Shown here: in pieces, positions 9,042 to 19,960 of the stretch
How the letters are laid out: every line of letters begins with the position of its first letter
How positions within the stretch are numbered: the stretch's first letter is position 1
From: Lactococcus carnosus
Lineage (GTDB): Bacteria > Bacillota > Bacilli > Lactobacillales > Streptococcaceae
Reading direction: 5' to 3'
NCBI RefSeq assembly: GCF_006770265.1
Contig: NZ_CP017194.1
Coordinates: 62,001-126,000, forward strand
Length of the DNA stretch: 64,000 nucleotides
Translations under genes and position numbers: made by a program
The notes under the pieces: model-generated
The model's database searches: none
Seen by the model: the letters and a program-made list of their open reading frames with translations, nothing else
What the model was told of the DNA's origin: nothing

Positions 9042-9100
9042 TTAGATAATTAAGATATGTTGTAGAAATAAGATGCGTTATAGAAAGTGGAAAATTAAAA

Positions 9101-9430
9101 ATGTTTGCTGAGCGAAAAGAAAAGCAAGTAGATGCGATAAAAAAATTTGATGCCTTACTGACAACAGCGATGGATGCTTGCGATCTAATACCTGAGATCA
9201 AGCAGATTTTAGAGACCCACTATAAACAGTTTCAAAAATCTCAAGATGTAGACCGTGAACGCGGAAGGCTTTGTAATGCGCTTACCCCTTATGCGATAAA
9301 TAGGACTTTGCCTAAATCTACAGGGGAGTTATATCTAACGTTTACCCAACAGCACCTGACCCTAGACAGAATTGTGCGAGATCAGAGCCTATTAACGAGT
9401 TTGCTTATGGGTATGACGAGTATACGATAA
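9101..9430 (+). CDS. Orphan bacteriocin immunity protein (LciA/EntA-immunity-like)
   Basis: A 109-residue helical protein. The segment ALTPYAINRTLPKSTGELY around residues 64-82 is nearly the same as a segment of the lactococcin A immunity protein LciA as recalled (ALTPLAINRTL...SELY). The preceding part (EIKQILETHYKQFQKSQD) is predicted helical, in keeping with the four-helix bundle of this group, whose members protect cells from class II bacteriocins by binding the mannose-PTS receptor complex from inside. No structural gene for a class IIa/lactococcin A-type bacteriocin is nearby, so it appears to be an orphan immunity gene. Own promoter, GTGGA ribosome site, and terminator. Confidence 0.8.
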   Translation: MFAERKEKQVDAIKKFDALLTTAMDACDLIPEIKQILETHYKQFQKSQDVDRERGRLCNALTPYAINRTLPKSTGELYLTFTQQHLTLDRIVRDQSLLTSLLMGMTSIR

Positions 9431-12377: not shown

Positions 12378-12425
12378 GTTGCGAAAATGCAACACTTGAA
12401 TTATCTGTTTTTTTTATGTTACACT
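12378..12425 (+). promoter_or_regulatory. Putative Rgg box and rgg promoter
   Basis: Inverted repeat GTTGC-N6-GCAAC (12378-12393) lies exactly 26 bases before the -10 TACACT (12420-12425). Both the box and the spacing recur at the bacteriocin promoter, so the regulator likely controls itself and the bacteriocin. Confidence 0.65.
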
Positions 12426-12553
12426 GTATATATAATAAATTCATGTAATTTTACAAACTAGTTTTTGAAATAAAAATAACAATTGATATCTAGTGAAGTT
12501 GTATCAACTAACTTATTAGGCCATAGGTTAACTCAGTCAAAGGAGGTAGGATC

Positions 12554-13415
12554 ATGAAAAAAGAACTTATAGGACAACATATCTGGGATTACTATCATCA
12601 AGTTCGACGTGATAGGGGCTATTCTATGGGGGATGTTGCTATATCTAATCCCTATCTGACTACCTCCCAATTATCGCGATTTGAGAGTGGCCAGAATATG
12701 TTGTCTATCGATCGTTTTCTAGCAGCGGTTAGTGGCTTGAATATGACCACCAGTGAATTTTTTGCCTTGCGAGACAATCAACCATCCTATTACCAACGCT
12801 TTAGTCAAAAAATGATGTTAGCTGTCATGGCCAAGGATATCCTGGCGCTGAAAGCGATGCTTAAGCCAAATGCGAAGATGAAGCTGGATAAACTGTACAA
12901 TCTACTCGTTAAGGCAGCAATACTTGATGTGAGTGGAGAAAAGCTAACGACTAGTTGCGAGAAAGCATTTCTTGGCACTTATTTACTATTGCTACCACAT
13001 TGGACGGTATTCGATGTTAATTTATTTAGTGCCTGTTTAGACATACTTGATAAAACAGAAGTCTATGCCTTAGGACAAGATATGTTAGCGAGTAATAGCT
13101 TAGCGACCCTACTATCTCAAAATGCAGAAGCTGTTAAAAAGGCATTGCTAAACCTCTATCTATTTTTTATCACTAGGCAGTATGTTAGTTGGGCAGTCCA
13201 TATTCAGGATCTGTTAGAACAGCTGTTAACAGAGTGGGATATGGCGGAGAAAATATCGCTACATATTGCCAAAAATTTTTTTGGTCTATCAACAAGAAAA
13301 AACACCAGAAATTTTGACAGAAATTCAAGGTGATTTTGCTACATTAGAACGATTTGAAGTAGTTGGTATGGCTAAACGCTTTAGACGTATATTTGATCAG
13401 CTAAATCAAGATTAG
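12554..13415 (+). pseudogene. Rgg/GadR/MutR-family regulator, frameshifted
   Basis: Transcription regulator with N-terminal helix-turn-helix (about residues 10-65; RRDRGYSMGDVAI, LSRFESGQNM) and a helical C-terminal repeat domain as in Rgg proteins. The open frame from ATG 12554 (ribosome site AAAGGAGG) runs to 13333. The remaining C terminus (PEILTEIQGDFATLERFE to FDQLNQD, stop 13413-13415) is in the +1 frame. The shift sits at an A5T7 tract (13271-13282); one T fewer would give a continuous 286-residue protein, normal for Rgg. It may be a null mutation, a phase-variable tract or a sequencing error. The truncated product would still have 259 residues and its DNA-binding domain. Confidence 0.8.
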
Positions 13416-13546
13416 TTTTTGCGCTTATCAATACCACCAAAGGCCATATAATTAATTGCACATCCGACTTTTCTTTTATTTTTCATTTTGATGTGCACAG
13501 CATATCGTACTATTTGCTATTTAATCGACTCTTTTTTATGTCAACT

Positions 13547-13594
13547 GTTGCAGATTCGCAACTTTTAAAATTCGCAGTTTTTTTATGCTATACT
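13547..13594 (+). promoter_or_regulatory. Putative Rgg box and bacteriocin promoter
   Basis: GTTGC-N6-GCAAC (13547-13562), then 26 bases, then -10 TATACT (13589-13594). The box would abut a poor -35, as expected for an activator-dependent promoter. Downstream bases (TATGTATATAA) also resemble those after the rgg -10. Confidence 0.7.
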
Positions 13595-13654
13595 CTATGT
13601 ATATAAAAGGTTCGAACATTTTTATAATAAAAATATTGAAGTGGAGAGATTAAC

Positions 13655-13978
13655 ATGAAAAAAACAAAGAAACTCATCGTCATCGGTGCGCTTGCACTAT
13701 CTATTGGGACTGCAGGTGCAGTCAGTGCTGTGATTACAAATCCAGCGCCCTCACCAATCATTGATGTATGGAGCTATGGTACGGCCTTAGGTGGTAAGCG
13801 GACATATTCACATTACTATGTGCAATCAGCAGGATATGGTTCCATCTCATCTGTGAAAAATTCTTTTGGTAGAGTGAAATCATCGGCAATAGAGAGTTAT
13901 GGTTGGGCGAGATCTGATGCAAATAAAGCATGGAATGATGGCACACTATCTGCACATTGGGGATACTATACTTTTTAA
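13655..13978 (+). CDS. Lactococcin 972-family bacteriocin precursor
   Basis: 107-residue secreted peptide. Sec-type signal peptide MKKTKKLIVIGALALSIG... with likely cleavage after AVSA at residues 22-25. The mature part has the lactococcin 972 layout: an early W-x-YG, the aromatic-rich YSHYYV run, then YGWARSDANKAW and a C-terminal HWGYYTF; lactococcin 972 itself similarly has an early W/YG, YSNYHH, GVWAKA and FYYNFW. Lactococcin 972 blocks septum formation by binding lipid II. The flanking membrane protein and ABC ATPase genes are those usually found with this family. Ribosome site GGAG. Mature spectrum unknown. Confidence 0.85.
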   Translation: MKKTKKLIVIGALALSIGTAGAVSAVITNPAPSPIIDVWSYGTALGGKRTYSHYYVQSAGYGSISSVKNSFGRVKSSAIESYGWARSDANKAWNDGTLSAHWGYYTF

Positions 13979-14057
13979 GATGTATTAAGACATTACTACG
14001 ATGATTCTTAATGCCATATCGTAAAAACTAGGTTAGCACCAAAGGGATGTTTTACTT

Positions 14058-14099
14058 TTAAAGTCAGATCCTATATTTTATACAGGATCTGATTTTAAA
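14058..14099 (+). terminator. Attenuating terminator after bacteriocin gene
   Basis: TCAGATCCT pairs with AGGATCTGA around an AT-rich loop, followed by TTTT. Partial read-through would give more bacteriocin than immunity/transport protein, a common arrangement. Confidence 0.65.
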
Positions 14100-14187
14100 G
14101 ATTGAACTAGTGGTTGTCACATCAAGCACGGTATGTTAGGATCGTTCAAATCTTGATAAAGGACTAGGTGTTGTTAGGGAGGATTGT

Positions 14188-16167
14188 TTGAAACTAAAAT
14201 TAGGAGTTGTCGCGTTTTTCTTTTGCTTAATGGCCATGTTAGGGGTACTTGCCCTCGAGGATCAACAGGAACCTGTTCCCCTACCTGTTGATGGCGCTTT
14301 TTCGATAGAGGGAAAAAGTATAAGCACCAATAAAGTGGTCTATGCAATAATGCAGAAGCTATGTGATGAAAAAGGTGTGACAGTCTATAAACCGATAGTA
14401 GATAAGGATAGTCAGATTCGCTATCCAAAACTGAATGATAGCAAGGATCAAAAAAGCTATCTACAAGTGCCTGTTATCGGGATGTATTATAGCTCTGGCC
14501 GCATCTCTCCTGCTGATTTTGATGGACTAAGACGTACAGGGTTACAGATAGTCTACCAAAAACTACCTTGGTTTTTAGGGGGATTTGCCCAGTTTTCAGG
14601 CACACTTCGTGCTATGCTAACGACGTCACTCTATATGATCTTTTTTATCTGCCTACTCGTATCGGGTAGCAGAAAGCTAAAAGAGCGGGTGATCTGGCGT
14701 TCATTAGGTAAACCAATCATCAGATTTTTTGCAGACAGCTGCCTACCCTTACTGGTCAATATGGGCTTGACCTTACTACTAGCCCTGCTCTATAGTCATT
14801 TTCGAGGTAACGGCTTGCATACGTACAGTAGTCAGGCTTTCTTAGCTATCCTACTTACAAACCTAATCATTTTTCAAGTGCTTGAACAGGTCTCACTTTT
14901 GATCGCCTATATGACGATTAAACTAGAGAAGCCTGTTGAGATGATTAAAAATAAGCTAAAGGGGGGCAGCTTATTTTTGATCTGGCTGGTGATGATTGGC
15001 GCCTTGATCTTTATTTCTGGTCAAGTGTTAAAAGAAACGACTCAGACCCAGGTAACCCTAAAAGATCAGATTGCCATGCTCAAGCCTTGGGAGCAAGTCA
15101 AGACGTGGCAGAAGTTAGAGCCGATTGGGATTCAGTCATTTGATCAAAATGGCCATGATTCTGACTTTAGAGAGAGTAACAAAATCTATACTGAGATTTT
15201 AGAAGCTGTCAAAGAGACTGAGTTTCTCTATCTTGGTGCTTCAGGTGCTTATGTACCAGATAGTGCCGTAGATGGTGGGTTCACGGCACAACTAAAATCA
15301 GATGGCATTAGTCAGCCAGAGATAAACAAACGACTGATCTATATTAACCAAGCAGGTGCTAAGCTCGAAAATGCAGTTAATCAAACGACTTATCAGCCGG
15401 TAAAGGGAAAACTAGCGACGATCTGTCTGCCTGAAAAATACAAAGAGGCACAAGCATCTGTTTTAAAAACTGTCTTTAGGGAGCAATTTATTGGGACGAC
15501 GGTTACAAAAGACGAGATTGCGCTGCAAGTCATCCCAAATGGTCAAAAATTATTTTACTTTAATCCATCAGGAGATGATCGATCCCAGCCAGATATGTTG
15601 TCACGTCTAGGAAGTCGTGCTAGTGATGAGGATGCTATCCTTGTTATTTTAGATACTCAGTTGATGCCAGCGCAGAGAGGTGGCGCACTTGCTAGTAATA
15701 TCACCAATAATGGATTATTTAGTCCAGAAGCTGTGGGTCGAATAGCAGCGCTAAGTAACCGATTAGACTTTGCTATCAATCCCGTGACAGTTTATCAAGG
15801 CGTTGTGCTTAATATCCAGTCGCTAAAGCATCAACTGGTCATGGCAAAATTTTTACAGAATTTGATGCTACTCATCTTGTTTATCTGTGTCTATCAGTAC
15901 GCGATGACGTTGCTTGCAAGCAAGCAATCTGACTTCGTTAAGGTGCTCATCTTAGGTCGTTCAAAGGTAGGGATGGCTGTCACAGCACTATTAGGGTTGT
16001 TTCTGGTTATTATCGGCGTAATTGCCATAACTGTCGCTCTCACTGGTCAGGTTATCCTTATCTTGCTTGCTTTACTATTAGGTGTGACGATCATCGGTGC
16101 CAGTATCCGAAGTTTCTTATTGATGCGTCGACATTATACACAAATTGTGAAAGGAGAATTATCGTGA
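14188..16167 (+). CDS. Bacteriocin-associated large membrane protein (lactococcin 972-group permease/immunity)
   Basis: 659-residue protein with one N-terminal membrane helix (about 5-22), a short extracytoplasmic part, four hydrophobic segments between about 145 and 285, a large extracytoplasmic domain (about 290-560) and three C-terminal helices (about 568-655). This FtsX/MacB-like layout matches the integral membrane protein regularly encoded next to lactococcin 972-type bacteriocins and thought to form an immunity/export complex with the following ATPase. TTG start at 14188, five bases behind AGGGAGG. Its last codons overlap the ATPase start by 4 bases, showing coupling. The individual role (export versus immunity) is not decided by sequence. 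Confidence 0.8.
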   Translation: MKLKLGVVAFFFCLMAMLGVLALEDQQEPVPLPVDGAFSIEGKSISTNKVVYAIMQKLCDEKGVTVYKPIVDKDSQIRYPKLNDSKDQKSYLQVPVIGMYYSSGRISPADFDGLRRTGLQIVYQKLPWFLGGFAQFSGTLRAMLTTSLYMIFFICLLVSGSRKLKERVIWRSLGKPIIRFFADSCLPLLVNMGLTLLLALLYSHFRGNGLHTYSSQAFLAILLTNLIIFQVLEQVSLLIAYMTIKLEKPVEMIKNKLKGGSLFLIWLVMIGALIFISGQVLKETTQTQVTLKDQIAMLKPWEQVKTWQKLEPIGIQSFDQNGHDSDFRESNKIYTEILEAVKETEFLYLGASGAYVPDSAVDGGFTAQLKSDGISQPEINKRLIYINQAGAKLENAVNQTTYQPVKGKLATICLPEKYKEAQASVLKTVFREQFIGTTVTKDEIALQVIPNGQKLFYFNPSGDDRSQPDMLSRLGSRASDEDAILVILDTQLMPAQRGGALASNITNNGLFSPEAVGRIAALSNRLDFAINPVTVYQGVVLNIQSLKHQLVMAKFLQNLMLLILFICVYQYAMTLLASKQSDFVKVLILGRSKVGMAVTALLGLFLVIIGVIAITVALTGQVILILLALLLGVTIIGASIRSFLLMRRHYTQIVKGELS

Positions 16168-16787
16168 CACTTGAACTAGTTAATTTTAGTAAGCGCTATG
16201 GGAAAAAAATCGTAATCGATCATATCACCTTGACTTTTGAAGCGGGGAAGAGCTATGCTTTGGTCGGTGTTTCTGGTTCTGGTAAAACAACACTACTCAA
16301 CAGCATTGGTCGCCTAGAAAAGATTCAGTCGGGCAAGATACGACTTGATGGTGAGGATATTTGGGAGATTAGTGAGCGTACTTTTTTTCGAGATTATTTA
16401 GGCTATGTTTTTCAGAGTTATTCGCTGTTAGAAAACAAGACTGTCAAACAAAATCTCAAGTTAGTCGAGACTAATCAAACAAAGCTAGTTGAGACACTTG
16501 AAAAAGTGGGGCTAGATGCCACTTATTTGGCTGCAAAAATTTATGAGTTATCTGGTGGGCAAGCACAGCGGGTTGCGATTGCAAGGATGCTCTTAAAAGC
16601 TAAGAAGATCATCTTAGCGGATGAGCCGACGGGTGCCCTGGATAAGCAGACAGGAGACGAGATTGTCACCTTATTATTAAATGAAGCGAAAGCTGATCAG
16701 TATGTCATCATCGCCACACATGATCCAGATGTTTATAATCAGGTTGATGTTGTCATAGATGTGACAACTTTGGGAGATGCAACATGA
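16164..16787 (+). CDS. ABC transporter ATP-binding protein of the bacteriocin locus
   Basis: 207-residue ATPase subunit: Walker A GVSGSGKTT (residues 35-43), Q-loop VFQSYSLL, signature LSGGQAQRV and Walker B IILADEPTGALD, followed by the switch histidine in IATHDPDV. Resembles LolD/MacB-type ATPases and the lactococcin 972-group export ATPases. GTG start with AAAGGAG upstream, overlapping the stop of the membrane protein gene and itself overlapping the next ATG, so the three genes form one translational unit. Confidence 0.9.
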   Translation: MTLELVNFSKRYGKKIVIDHITLTFEAGKSYALVGVSGSGKTTLLNSIGRLEKIQSGKIRLDGEDIWEISERTFFRDYLGYVFQSYSLLENKTVKQNLKLVETNQTKLVETLEKVGLDATYLAAKIYELSGGQAQRVAIARMLLKAKKIILADEPTGALDKQTGDEIVTLLLNEAKADQYVIIATHDPDVYNQVDVVIDVTTLGDAT

Positions 16788-17296
16788 AGAGAAGCAAACG
16801 AAGGAGAAGATTGATTCTACTGACTCTAGTCTTGACTTGTCTAGTTGTTGGGGTGGTCGTGTTCAAAAAATTAACCAAAAAACTACCACAAGTCAAACCC
16901 ATAGTGACAATCCAGATCTGCACCTTATCAGATGCGGATACAGCAAGCTGGCAAAACCTAAAAAAAGTAAGTTTGGATGATGTGAATTATCTGATAGTGG
17001 TGAAGCAAAAAGCAACTGTAGAGGAGCTCTTCCAAAGTTTAATAGATGAGGGTCTGGCTTATGGTTATGGTGTTGATGAGACAAGTGTCGCATCTTACAA
17101 CGATAACATAGGAGATGAGGTCATCAACAGCAAGGGGAGCAGGTTACTAGGGATTAAATCGATTGGGGTGTCAGATACTAACTTTATGGTTGCTGATTTC
17201 GATTATGGCAGTAAAATGCTTAATCAGCAAAAAAAAGACTCAGAACCAATGCTAAAAAAATTCTATCAAGCCTATCAAAAGGCACAAAAAAAATAA
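16784..17296 (+). CDS. Membrane-anchored protein of unknown function in bacteriocin locus
   Basis: 170 residues, not recognised. A very basic N terminus (MKRSKRRRR) and one membrane helix (residues about 10-27, LILLTLVLTCLVVGVVVF) put the remaining 140 residues outside the cell. The outer part is mixed alpha/beta (SLDDVNYLIVVKQKATVEELFQ) with a lysine-rich tail. It overlaps the ATPase stop codon (ATGA), so it belongs to the bacteriocin operon, and a terminator follows directly. It may be an accessory immunity protein or an adaptor that captures the bacteriocin; that is inference from position only. Confidence 0.7.
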   Translation: MKRSKRRRRLILLTLVLTCLVVGVVVFKKLTKKLPQVKPIVTIQICTLSDADTASWQNLKKVSLDDVNYLIVVKQKATVEELFQSLIDEGLAYGYGVDETSVASYNDNIGDEVINSKGSRLLGIKSIGVSDTNFMVADFDYGSKMLNQQKKDSEPMLKKFYQAYQKAQKK

Positions 17297-17307
17297 GAAC
17301 CGTTTCG

Positions 17308-17332
17308 CTTTGTCAGTTGGCAAAGTTTTTTT
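17308..17332 (+). terminator. Terminator of bacteriocin operon
   Basis: CTTTG pairs with CAAAG, extended inward by two or three pairs, followed by seven T. Confidence 0.75.
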
Positions 17333-17465
17333 GTTTTCGATACCGGTTTGTAAGCATGACACCAGAAAAAAAGCCAATAACCAGGGGATTTAGCGTTCCA
17401 GGCTATAGACTTCTATTTATATTTGAAGTAATTGGCGCATCTCAAGGTGCGTTATGTTAAGCTAA

Positions 17466-17679: not shown

Positions 17680-18525
17680 CTAAAGATCTTTCATCCCCTC
17701 TCGCCAAGAGTTAAAGGCTAGTTTGCCACCGTTTTGTTTATAGACTGCATTTGACACCGCTCGCTCCCACGGATTTTTGCTAAGATATGAGATAGTATTG
17801 CTGTCTCCGTTTAGTTGCTTAGCATAGTAGGGAGCCCAAATAGGGCCGCAAGCAGGTTCATCATCTACAATATTATAAATACCAGTAGGTAAGGATATTG
17901 CCAGTATAGCTGCTGCTACAGCATCCTGGATATGAATGAAATTTGTGATGCCATGACTTACTTTAGCAGTGCCATCTAAAAATTGCTGATGGATATCCCC
18001 ATTTTTTGCGTACCAAGTGTCCTCACCATATAAGGTACCATATCTTAAAATAACATGTTGCGCTAGTTGTTGTGTCGCCTTTTCTAAGGCTAGTATGCCA
18101 TCGATTGTTGTTTTCCTAGGAAAGTCTGCTGCTAAATCTAAGGGCGTGTCTTCTGTTGCCGTTTCTTTTCCGGCTTCATATGCCCAAGAAATACTTTGTG
18201 AGATGAGTTTCTCAACATGATAAGCGAGTGAAGCTGCTACGATGTGTTGTGTGCCAATCTTACGGATCGTTGCATTGTCTTGGCTACTTAGGTGCTTTAA
18301 ATCAGTTACTTGATGGATAATGATAGTCGGTTTAAATGAGTTAACCATGTCAAAGACAAAGGCTTTATCACGAATATCCCCGATATATGCGCGTGCATTA
18401 AGTGTATGCAGCATATCTGCACCTGATTTTGTTCTTGTTAATCCGGCCACGTCGTGAATTTTTGCTAAATGTTTTGTGATACGCTTGCCTAAAACACCAG
18501 TGGCACCTGTAATTAATATTTTCAT
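17680..18525 (-). CDS. NAD-dependent epimerase/dehydratase-family protein
   Basis: Extended short-chain dehydrogenase with the nucleotide-binding motif GATGVLGKRI at residues 7-16. The usual catalytic YxxxK is not evident: the corresponding region reads SISWAYEAGKE, so the Tyr-Lys pair would have to be YEAGK (fits YxxxK). 281 residues. The substrate is unknown; related proteins act on nucleotide sugars or small aldehydes. Ribosome site AGGAGG. Transcribed divergently from a MocR-type regulator through interleaved promoters, so it is probably the regulator's target. Confidence 0.82.
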   Translation of the reverse strand: MKILITGATGVLGKRITKHLAKIHDVAGLTRTKSGADMLHTLNARAYIGDIRDKAFVFDMVNSFKPTIIIHQVTDLKHLSSQDNATIRKIGTQHIVAASLAYHVEKLISQSISWAYEAGKETATEDTPLDLAADFPRKTTIDGILALEKATQQLAQHVILRYGTLYGEDTWYAKNGDIHQQFLDGTAKVSHGITNFIHIQDAVAAAILAISLPTGIYNIVDDEPACGPIWAPYYAKQLNGDSNTISYLSKNPWERAVSNAVYKQNGGKLAFNSWREGMKDL

Positions 18526-18544
18526 ATATCCTCCTGTTCAGTTT

Positions 18545-18576
18545 GATTGTAACATGCTGTAAACTTTGATACAATC
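18545..18576. promoter_or_regulatory. Interleaved divergent promoters and inverted repeat (mocR/epimerase)
   Basis: GATTGTA (18545-18551) and TACAATC (18570-18576) form an inverted repeat with an 18-base gap. Plus strand reads TTGTAA-17-TACAAT (toward mocR); the minus strand reads TTGTAT-17-TACAAT (toward the epimerase). The -35 of each promoter is therefore the complement of the -10 of the other. Confidence 0.7.
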
Positions 18577-18616
18577 ATATATAAATGAATCTGTATGGGG
18601 ACAAAAAGGACGTGTC

Positions 18617-19960
18617 ATGACTAAATATGAGCAAATTATTGATGATATAAAAGCGATGATACAAGCCGGTGATCTGGTTCAGGGAGACAGGCTGCCAGCA
18701 ATACGTAGGTTAGGTGAGACATATGGGTGTAATAAGGATACTGTAAGTAAAGCCTTATTAGCATTGAAGTATCAAAATATCATCTATTCAAAAGAAAAAA
18801 GTGGGACTTATGTGTTGCAGGGGAATATCACGTCGGATAGTGAGTTATCAGACGTCATAGATTTTGGGAATGCCATGCCCGATGAGCGGTTATTTCCTTA
18901 TGCTGATTTTAGACAGTGCCTTGATCAAGCCATCCAAACAAAACAGGCAAAATTATTTACTTACCATCTAAACCATAAAGGACTTGCTGATTTAGTAGAC
19001 GCACTCTATCTTTATCTTAAACAAGAGCAAGTCTATACACAAAAAGAGAGCATACTTATAACGACTGGTATCCAGCAGGCACTCTACATCTTAAGCCAAA
19101 TCCCTTTTCCAAATGATAAATCGGTCATCCTTATTGAGCAACCAACCTATCATATGATGAATCAGTTGCTTGTGGCGGAAAAAATAGAGTTTGAAACCAT
19201 ACGTCGTGATCATAAAGGCGTCGATCTTCATGAGCTAGAGCAGCTATTTAAAACAAAGTCGATCAAATTTTTTTATACGATTCCCCGGTTTTCAAATCCT
19301 CTAGGTGCTTTTTACACGGCAAAACAAAAGCAGAAAATCATTTCCTTAGCAGAACAGTATGATGTTTATATAGTAGAAGATGACTATTTATCAGATTTTG
19401 ATGTGAATCACAATAATTTGCCATTGCATTATTATGATGTCAATCAACGTGTCATTTACTTAAAATCTTTTTCAAAAATTATTTTTCCAGCCCTAAGGAT
19501 AGGATGCTGTGTTTTACCAGAAGCAATAATAGAGACATTTCTAGCAAAAAAAGTGTTAATTGATTATGATACAAACTTGATCACTCAGATGGCTCTAGCG
19601 CTCTATTTAGACAGTGGCATGTTTGATAAACATAGAAAAGAATTGGCCAAAATATATCGAAAGAAAGCACGCGCTTTAAACCAAACTTTACGAGATCTTG
19701 GCTATGCGCCAAACCATTTTGATAAGACTTTAGATACGAAGTTCGTCTTTCAACTCAAAGATGATGTGGCAATTCACGAGATAGAGAGACAGTTAATACA
19801 GCAAAAAATTAGCGTCGATTTTATGGTTAGAAATTTTATACAGCTACCTCAAAAGCACTATATCAAGATAGATGTTCGTAACATGACACAAAAAAAGATA
19901 GCAGAAAATGTCAAAAAATTAGTTGCAATTATACATGACTCAGTCAGAATAGATGGTTAA
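18617..19960 (+). CDS. MocR/GntR-type regulator with aminotransferase domain
   Basis: Fusion regulator: an N-terminal winged helix of GntR type (about residues 1-68; GDRLPAIRRLGETYGCNKDTVSKAL) and a fold-type I aminotransferase-like domain (about 85-440) with the PLP-binding lysine K287 in YLKSFSKIIFPALRIG and conserved N227-P228 (RFSNPLG). 447 residues from the ATG at 18617, chosen because AAGGA lies seven bases before it; the in-frame upstream extension spans the promoter. MocR proteins sense PLP or amino compounds and usually regulate the divergent gene, here the epimerase. Confidence 0.9.
   Translation: MTKYEQIIDDIKAMIQAGDLVQGDRLPAIRRLGETYGCNKDTVSKALLALKYQNIIYSKEKSGTYVLQGNITSDSELSDVIDFGNAMPDERLFPYADFRQCLDQAIQTKQAKLFTYHLNHKGLADLVDALYLYLKQEQVYTQKESILITTGIQQALYILSQIPFPNDKSVILIEQPTYHMMNQLLVAEKIEFETIRRDHKGVDLHELEQLFKTKSIKFFYTIPRFSNPLGAFYTAKQKQKIISLAEQYDVYIVEDDYLSDFDVNHNNLPLHYYDVNQRVIYLKSFSKIIFPALRIGCCVLPEAIIETFLAKKVLIDYDTNLITQMALALYLDSGMFDKHRKELAKIYRKKARALNQTLRDLGYAPNHFDKTLDTKFVFQLKDDVAIHEIERQLIQQKISVDFMVRNFIQLPQKHYIKIDVRNMTQKKIAENVKKLVAIIHDSVRIDG

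Follow-up and report, generated by a model that had tools for sequence, protein, structure and literature searches.

A five-gene cassette on the chromosome of Lactococcus carnosus, lying within a 64,000-nucleotide (nt) stretch of contig NZ_CP017194.1 (the window in what follows), is read here with fair confidence as a lactococcin 972-like bacteriocin system that is switched by an Rgg regulator and carries a three-gene immunity complex. All five genes lie on the forward strand in the order rgg, bacteriocin precursor, 659-residue membrane protein, ATP-binding cassette (ABC) ATPase and 170-residue membrane-anchored protein, and the cassette is flanked by genes for DUF1275 and an epimerase in a genome that consists of a single 2.16 Mb contig; this inventory bears out the gene list of the first-pass annotation of the same DNA. 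Our reading draws on what was computed, namely the gene order, the fold similarity of the precursor model, a repeat shared by two promoters, the retention of three genes where the precursor is broken and the presence or absence of the cassette among relatives. The four structural genes occur in the same order in Streptococcus and in Lactococcus plantarum, and this recurrence, together with apparent purifying selection on the precursor, places the locus beyond chance. The kind of system is already known; the fourth structural protein and the shared promoter element are new as far as our searches reach.

Precursor fold and downstream proteins

The 107-residue precursor has a signal peptide that is plausible by eye, and the cut after AVSA, also placed by eye, leaves a predicted mature part of 82 residues (computed mass 8975.7 Da) without cysteine, so that the earlier proposal of a secreted precursor with a mature peptide of about this length remains plausible. 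A structure model built with 12 relatives consists of six beta strands and is confident from about residue 36 onward. When the model was searched with Foldseek, lactococcin 972 (2lgn) ranked first among 350,542 PDB chains (E 5.4e-3, probability 1.00; TM 0.63 by target length), and VIA-align superposed 64 of the 66 residues of 2lgn with a root-mean-square deviation (rmsd) of 2.7 and Z 7.2. The alignment begins at model residue 36, and the roughly ten residues that open the mature part, including a P-x-P motif that is invariant in 20 of 20 aligned sequences, are without counterpart in lactococcin 972. On this predicted structure the precursor is probably lactococcin 972-like, the agreement of the model with that fold being moderate and not conclusive.

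The ATPase points to the same family: TIGR03608 (L_ocin_972_ABC) was the best of 200 matching NCBIfam models with 225.5 bits, 81 bits ahead of the next (144.7). The membrane protein is 42–44% identical to full-length streptococcal counterparts; it has no direct Pfam or NCBIfam match to bact_immun_7tm (TIGR01654) and is homologous, at 23–24% identity, to proteins of two further loci, L055 and L062, which match TIGR01654 below its cutoff (E 6e-12 and 2.8e-13, respectively).

A number of results weigh against a straightforward assignment to the lactococcin 972 family. The precursor scored 13.6 bits (E 0.1) with Pfam PF09683 (Lactococcin_972), below the gathering cutoff of 22, and thus failed the profile check that the first-pass annotation had proposed; the ATPase likewise lies below the curated TIGR03608 cutoff of 254.85. 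The Foldseek search with the precursor model returned nothing at E ≤ 0.001, and in VIA-align, which warns that Z below 8 may reflect a common arrangement, 9hkj ('Formosin D', Z 7.1) was tied with 2lgn and the next row stood at 4.8. Among the matches listed in a literature search for formosin, none dealt with a bacteriocin. A sequence profile of the precursor family had no match in the PDB up to E 10. PF09683 matched only two of 20 aligned precursor-family sequences even at E ≤ 0.1 (best 0.026), and the ATPases of three relatives that were scanned are also under the TIGR03608 cutoff. The claim of a lactococcin 972-type locus therefore stands on predicted fold, best ATPase family and gene order, not on the curated Pfam and NCBIfam cutoffs; because these are not reached, we describe the system as lactococcin 972-like and place it on an outlying branch, short of plain membership in PF09683.

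The 170-residue protein has one N-terminal hydrophobic segment (residues 10–28) and no Pfam or NCBIfam family above cutoff. Its model (predicted local distance difference test, pLDDT, 80.3) retrieved nothing in Foldseek at E ≤ 0.001, and a second look with VIA-align placed 1xs5 (Z 10.3, 108 residues aligned) and 4k3f (Z 9.8, 107 aligned) at the top, both with rmsd 3.0, with ovotransferrin lobes and a Streptococcus mutans lipoprotein next in rank. The first two we take to be MetQ-like binding proteins, and all of these presumably have the type II solute-binding fold in common. The alignments give moderate support to a single lobe of the solute-binding fold on a membrane anchor. A sequence search of the family against the PDB gave one match (E 0.033), which was not credited.

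The family collection that was scanned comprised 295 genomes of 10 genera. The precursor matched in 43 genomes and the profile of the 170-residue protein in 45, three of them marginal near E 1e-3; the 42 clear matches are this genome, L. plantarum and 40 genomes of the genus holding Streptococcus, and the profile matches are confined to two of the 10 genera. A tblastn search found no 170-residue protein in the fetched stretches of distant lactococcin-like loci from the Lactococcus genus or other genera. Scanning the collection with a closer precursor alignment gave 18 loci, and the named four-gene loci come from L. plantarum and streptococci. The protein that the first-pass annotation called unrecognised does lack a family above cutoff; judged by this distribution it is, at the same time, the product of a conserved fourth gene of the streptococcal branch. 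Among the papers available to our literature search, none joined lactococcin 972 with a fourth gene, or streptococcin or lactococcin 972 with solute binding.

What the three downstream genes do was approached through their retention. The precursor, membrane protein, ATPase and 170-residue gene were scored in 44 loci, a precursor being counted as broken at coverage below 0.9 and a downstream gene as kept at coverage of at least 95%. Nine loci were excluded: the window locus, that of L. plantarum, five cut by contig ends (L034, L036, L129, L145 and L146), and L138 and L139, in which a 170-residue gene was found without the membrane protein. In the remaining 35 streptococcal loci the precursor frame is open in 15, four of which (L033, L043, L045, L047) have no start codon close by under the scoring rule, and broken in 20. 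All three downstream genes are kept in every one of the 15 loci with an open precursor and in 18 of the 20 with a broken one (in two of these 18, L131 and L133, the 170-residue gene continues past the contig end); the two loci that fall short are L135, through its ATPase, and L141, through its membrane protein. Together the three genes are about nine times as long as the precursor, so that unconstrained decay would be expected to strike them first, and their persistence where the precursor is broken favours a role in immunity. Counting against the weight of this result, the broken streptococcal loci share ancestry and the 20 are not independent events.

Published accounts fit this pattern. Pneumococcal partial clusters are described as mostly without the bacteriocin gene and with immunity and/or transport genes kept (PMC6120550), a defensive role has been proposed in mitis (PMC11921387), and the whole lactococcin 972 cluster raises the resistance of Lactococcus lactis, with minimum inhibitory concentrations of 800–1600 AU/mL for cluster plasmids against 12.5 for the host in the available table rows (PMC4055356). 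PMC11796350 describes the roles of the two downstream gene products as experimentally unverified in any lactococcin 972 locus. From the retention pattern, the membrane protein, ATPase and 170-residue protein are likely a self-protection unit. Export of the bacteriocin, or of a signal, by the same three proteins would agree with the NCBIfam name of the ATPase family, 'putative bacteriocin export ABC transporter', but by eye the precursor carries a signal peptide of the Sec type, and an exporter without cargo would not be expected to survive in 18 of 20 broken-precursor loci; we hold export to be improbable. Still harder to credit is the proposal that the downstream complex senses the secreted beta-protein, which would then be a signal or a stress protein instead of a bacteriocin: the receptor-like lobe fold modelled for the anchored protein would suit a sensor, whereas the first structural neighbour of the precursor is a bacteriocin, and a precursor that is often broken while the downstream genes stay is what a bacteriocin with its immunity would be expected to leave.

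Within the immunity reading, we tentatively suggest that the 170-residue protein may represent a new class of immunity receptor, whose tethered lobe would catch the lactococcin 972-like peptide, or its lipid II complex, and pass it to a dedicated ABC pump. As part of that suggestion, and with the same reserve, it could be a fourth component specific to this branch and additional to the three genes described for streptococcin. Among the loci set aside above, L138 (genome G184) and L139 (G190), both streptococcal, carry the 170-residue gene without a recognisable membrane protein; in L138 tblastn recovered an ATPase remnant only, and the gene in L139 is itself a fragment.

The Rgg gene and a shared promoter element

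The same element stands ahead of rgg and ahead of the precursor gene: an inverted repeat, TTGC-N6-GCAA, then exactly 27 nt and a -10-like box preceded by TTTTTTATGY; the L. plantarum precursor has the element too, with the same 27-nt spacing. As a 47-nt pattern it has two perfect matches in the genome, both at the cassette, against none for the reversed pattern, and allowing one mismatch adds six matches, compared with two for the reversed pattern. Across 12 genomes of the genus the perfect matches number five, with none for the reversed pattern, and three of the five are this locus in two species.

An Rgg gene recurs upstream of lactococcin-like precursors. Among the seven same-genus loci with enough upstream sequence it is present in six (the window, L032, L050, L052, L059 and L072; not L061), and an eighth, L053, could not be judged. 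A profile of these six Rggs, applied to 32 loci of other genera, located a divergent Rgg-like gene upstream in seven (Table 1); Pfam, run on five of the seven, put four above the Rgg_C cutoff and L035 just short of it. Pfam also contributed a ComR-type gene at L057. The first-pass annotation had regarded the Rgg link as unfamiliar for this family. The link is real, and the shared operator-like repeat and the recurrence in the genus make it stronger than was claimed, although it has precedents: the streptococcin B locus is activated by ScbR, a regulator of ComR type encoded upstream of it, with a XIP-type peptide (PMC11796350), and pneumococcal bacteriocin clusters are reported to have Rgg and PlcR regulators commonly beside them (PMC11796350, PMC6120550).

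The presence of an Rgg-type gene directly upstream was well founded (Rgg_C, PF21259, 67.1 bits against a cutoff of 27; TIGR01716, 69.5 against 36.9), with the correction that its reading frame is shifted near the 3' end. The main frame aligns only as far as position 252 of the 281 of the profile, the last part being lost, and profile positions 237–279 are found in another frame at 13230–13412, with an A5T7 run at the switch. Of the other same-genus Rggs, four of five are called at 280–287 residues and the fifth is an open frame of that size. Since one genome per species was compared, mutation and assembly error are indistinguishable here. Programmed frameshifting was considered and is unsupported, the five other same-genus Rggs each lying in one frame.

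Against regulation through this element and this gene stand several observations. The shifted frame means that regulation may be impaired in this strain. The other two perfect matches in the genus, in the close relatives G031 and G038, precede unrelated genes, and the bare repeat is not rare, with seven copies in the window against a shuffle mean of 2.1 (4 of 100 shuffles reach seven). The L. plantarum rgg has no such element ahead of it, nor does the second lactococcin-like locus in this genome have one. Small open reading frames (ORFs) on both strands around the rgg–precursor gap included none that was convincing by eye as a pheromone gene, and none common with L. plantarum by eye; the rest of the genome was not searched for one.

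Three side observations concern these features. At L150 (G038) and L151 (G031) the repeat pattern lies ahead of a gene for a short anchored protein, followed in L151 by a 446-residue gene; in comparison with the five cassette genes, only distant ATPases match there (31–39% identity). The second lactococcin 972-like locus of this genome, L072 (G000:C1:1352000-1368000; precursor 9096–9428, reverse strand), has its own intact 287-residue Rgg directly upstream and no match to the 170-residue protein. In loci of this second type an ORF of 48–59 residues sharing SNLVANK.D (L002 1970–2137, reverse strand; similar in L059, L061 and L050) lies between rgg and precursor, or in L061 upstream of the precursor; it may encode a signal peptide or reflect conservation of the leader DNA.

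Chromosomal site, distribution and selection

The coordinates are collected in Table 1. The first-pass annotation had the structural genes all overlapping by a few bases, which holds for the last three (4 nt at each junction); the precursor, by contrast, is separated from the membrane-protein gene by 209 nt. This gap contains a strong hairpin whose 20-nt arms are 90% complementary, and the surrounding 101 nt fold at -27 kcal/mol (z -3.72; none of 200 shuffles equally stable). The L. plantarum gap has a hairpin too, different in sequence (z -2.57; 3 of 200 shuffles equally stable). Three terminator-like sites in the region against a shuffle mean of 3.3 make the site after the last gene weak, and Rfam gave no match at gathering scores between 12300 and 17700.

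Table 1. Features of the cassette region, with positions in the window unless loci are named.
Feature	Position	Strand	Basis
Operator-like inverted repeat TTGC-N6-GCAA, 27 nt and -10-like box, ahead of rgg	12379..12425	+	Perfect 47-nt pattern match
rgg, Rgg/GadR/MutR-family regulator, 259-residue open frame, 3'-end frameshift	12554..13333	+	Pfam Rgg_C, TIGR01716
Second repeat and -10-like box, ahead of precursor gene	13548..13594	+	Perfect 47-nt pattern match
Lactococcin 972-like precursor, 107 residues, predicted mature part of 82 residues from residue 26	13655..13978	+	Predicted fold, sub-threshold PF09683
Hairpin in the gap after the precursor gene, a possible site of attenuation or processing	14057..14099	+	20-nt arms
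Multi-pass membrane protein, 659 residues, TTG start, presumed immunity transporter	14188..16167	+	Homology to streptococcal counterparts
ABC ATPase, 207 residues	16164..16787	+	Best model TIGR03608
Membrane-anchored protein, 170 residues, predicted one-lobe solute-binding-protein-like outer domain	16784..17296	+	Hydrophobic segment, model
Terminator-like site after the 170-residue gene	17307..17336	+	8-pair stem then T run
Divergent Rgg-like gene upstream	L035, L037, L038, L042, L055, L062, L064	divergent	Rgg profile

The cassette is chromosomal, and some species of the genus have it while others lack it; a protein search of a plasmid collection with the precursor gave no match. The flanking genes are shared by the close relatives G031 and G038 (protein identity 95.0% and 97.2% for the epimerase, 97.0% and 95.7% for DUF1275, respectively), which have no cassette. 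Their DNA alignment to the window ends on the left at 12414 (G031) and 12438 (G038) and resumes from 17388, and a TTGC-N6-GCAA repeat is found at the junction in both. This suggests that G031 and G038 lost the cassette and kept a piece of the rgg promoter, although gain by recombination is a conceivable alternative. In L. plantarum the cassette lies between DUF1275 and guaB, and in seven other genomes of the genus DUF1275 and guaB are present with no match to a cassette gene in the fetched stretches. A recent foreign origin is unsupported by base composition (39.6% G+C in the cassette, 39.8% in the window). Between cassette and guaB the window has an epimerase-like gene and a MocR/PdxR-type regulator (17680–19960), as do G031 and G038 but not L. 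plantarum, so the site has gained or lost other genes too. The DUF1275 gene of G038 (G038:C1:2149204-2149893) contains an internal TGA.

Between the window and L. plantarum, the ratio of nonsynonymous to synonymous differences per site (pN/pS) was 0.16 for the precursor (84% identity), 0.17 for the part of the ATPase compared (80%), 0.29 for the membrane protein (64%), 0.48 for Rgg (47%) and 0.49 for the 170-residue ectodomain (42%), against tighter values for the housekeeping genes guaB (0.04) and rlmH (0.09); all are rough, since synonymous sites are near saturation. By these ratios the two Lactococcus species have kept the precursor under purifying selection. The ATPase of L. plantarum DSM 20686 stops at 167 residues, before the region matching the ATHD motif of the window ATPase, which we take to be the H-loop, and that locus may be defective; in both L032 (8498–8998) and L073 of this strain the 170-residue gene follows the 167-residue ATPase gene immediately.

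Decay has to be weighed for the window locus as well. That the cassette is a relic, silent in this strain with a non-working frameshifted Rgg, would agree with the main rgg frame ending at profile position 252, with the two close relatives without a cassette and with the truncated L. plantarum ATPase. The precursor and the three downstream genes are, however, full-length, five flanking window genes align end to end with G031, so that the region is not generally decayed, and the shift at the A5T7 run could be an assembly error. We therefore regard a relic as unlikely, if less so than the alternatives discussed for the downstream genes, and the cassette as probably functional or recently functional.

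Proposed mechanism and comparison with known systems

In the mechanism that we propose for the Rgg-switched cassette, Rgg, presumably with an imported peptide bound, would bind TTGC-N6-GCAA ahead of rgg and of the precursor gene and activate both. The precursor would leave the cell by the Sec route, lose about 25 residues and fold into a lactococcin 972-like beta-sandwich, which most likely would bind lipid II of close relatives and stop septum formation. The hairpin after the precursor gene would reduce the number of transcripts that reach the three downstream genes, whose products may form one membrane complex: at the cell surface the anchored lobe of the 170-residue protein would capture the bacteriocin, either free or in complex with lipid II, and immunity would follow as the membrane protein and ATPase drive it off. 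Secretion, the lipid II target, binding of the regulator and its peptide, immunity and attenuation are steps that we infer. The branch offers a testable four-gene version of the system, with a distinct anchored protein, natural loci in which the precursor is broken and the other genes are kept, and a cassette-free site in close relatives, and to the known link between Rgg/ComR regulators and this bacteriocin family it adds a regulator that has a precise shared promoter element.

Lactococcin 972 itself (lcn972-orf2-orf3, plasmid pBL1 of L. lactis), whose two downstream genes have been described as a putative ABC transporter (PMC4055356), resembles the cassette in being a secreted peptide and in the predicted mature fold, at 20–23% identity over the aligned part of the precursor. 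Unlike it, the cassette has the N-terminal P-x-P stretch, a chromosomal site, its own rgg, a gene after the ATPase and a hairpin after the precursor. L. raffinolactis has also been reported to carry a lactococcin 972-like gene on its chromosome (PMC11409674). The streptococcin B locus scb of S. pneumoniae likewise has two genes after that of a lactococcin 972-like peptide, with an Rgg/ComR-type regulator immediately upstream and an inverted repeat at a short fixed distance, there 20 nt, before the -10 box (PMC11796350). It differs in that ScbR is of ComR type, with the box taaggacattg(a/g)tgtccttg-n20-tataat and, in a relative, a XIP-type peptide (PMC11796350), whereas the cassette has a different repeat, which also stands ahead of the regulator gene, and no adjacent pheromone gene was seen.

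The four-gene loci of streptococci (S. mitis, S. sanguinis, S. infantis, S. pneumoniae and others) have the same four structural genes in the same order, with identities to the cassette of 42–51% for unbroken precursors, 42–44% for full-length membrane proteins, 62–65% for ATPases and 29–38% for the 170-residue protein. They are unlike it in that no codirectional Rgg was found, a divergent Rgg-like gene being present in L035, L037, L038 and L042, BioY lying upstream in L041 and an O-methyltransferase gene in L033, and in that many of their precursors are broken.

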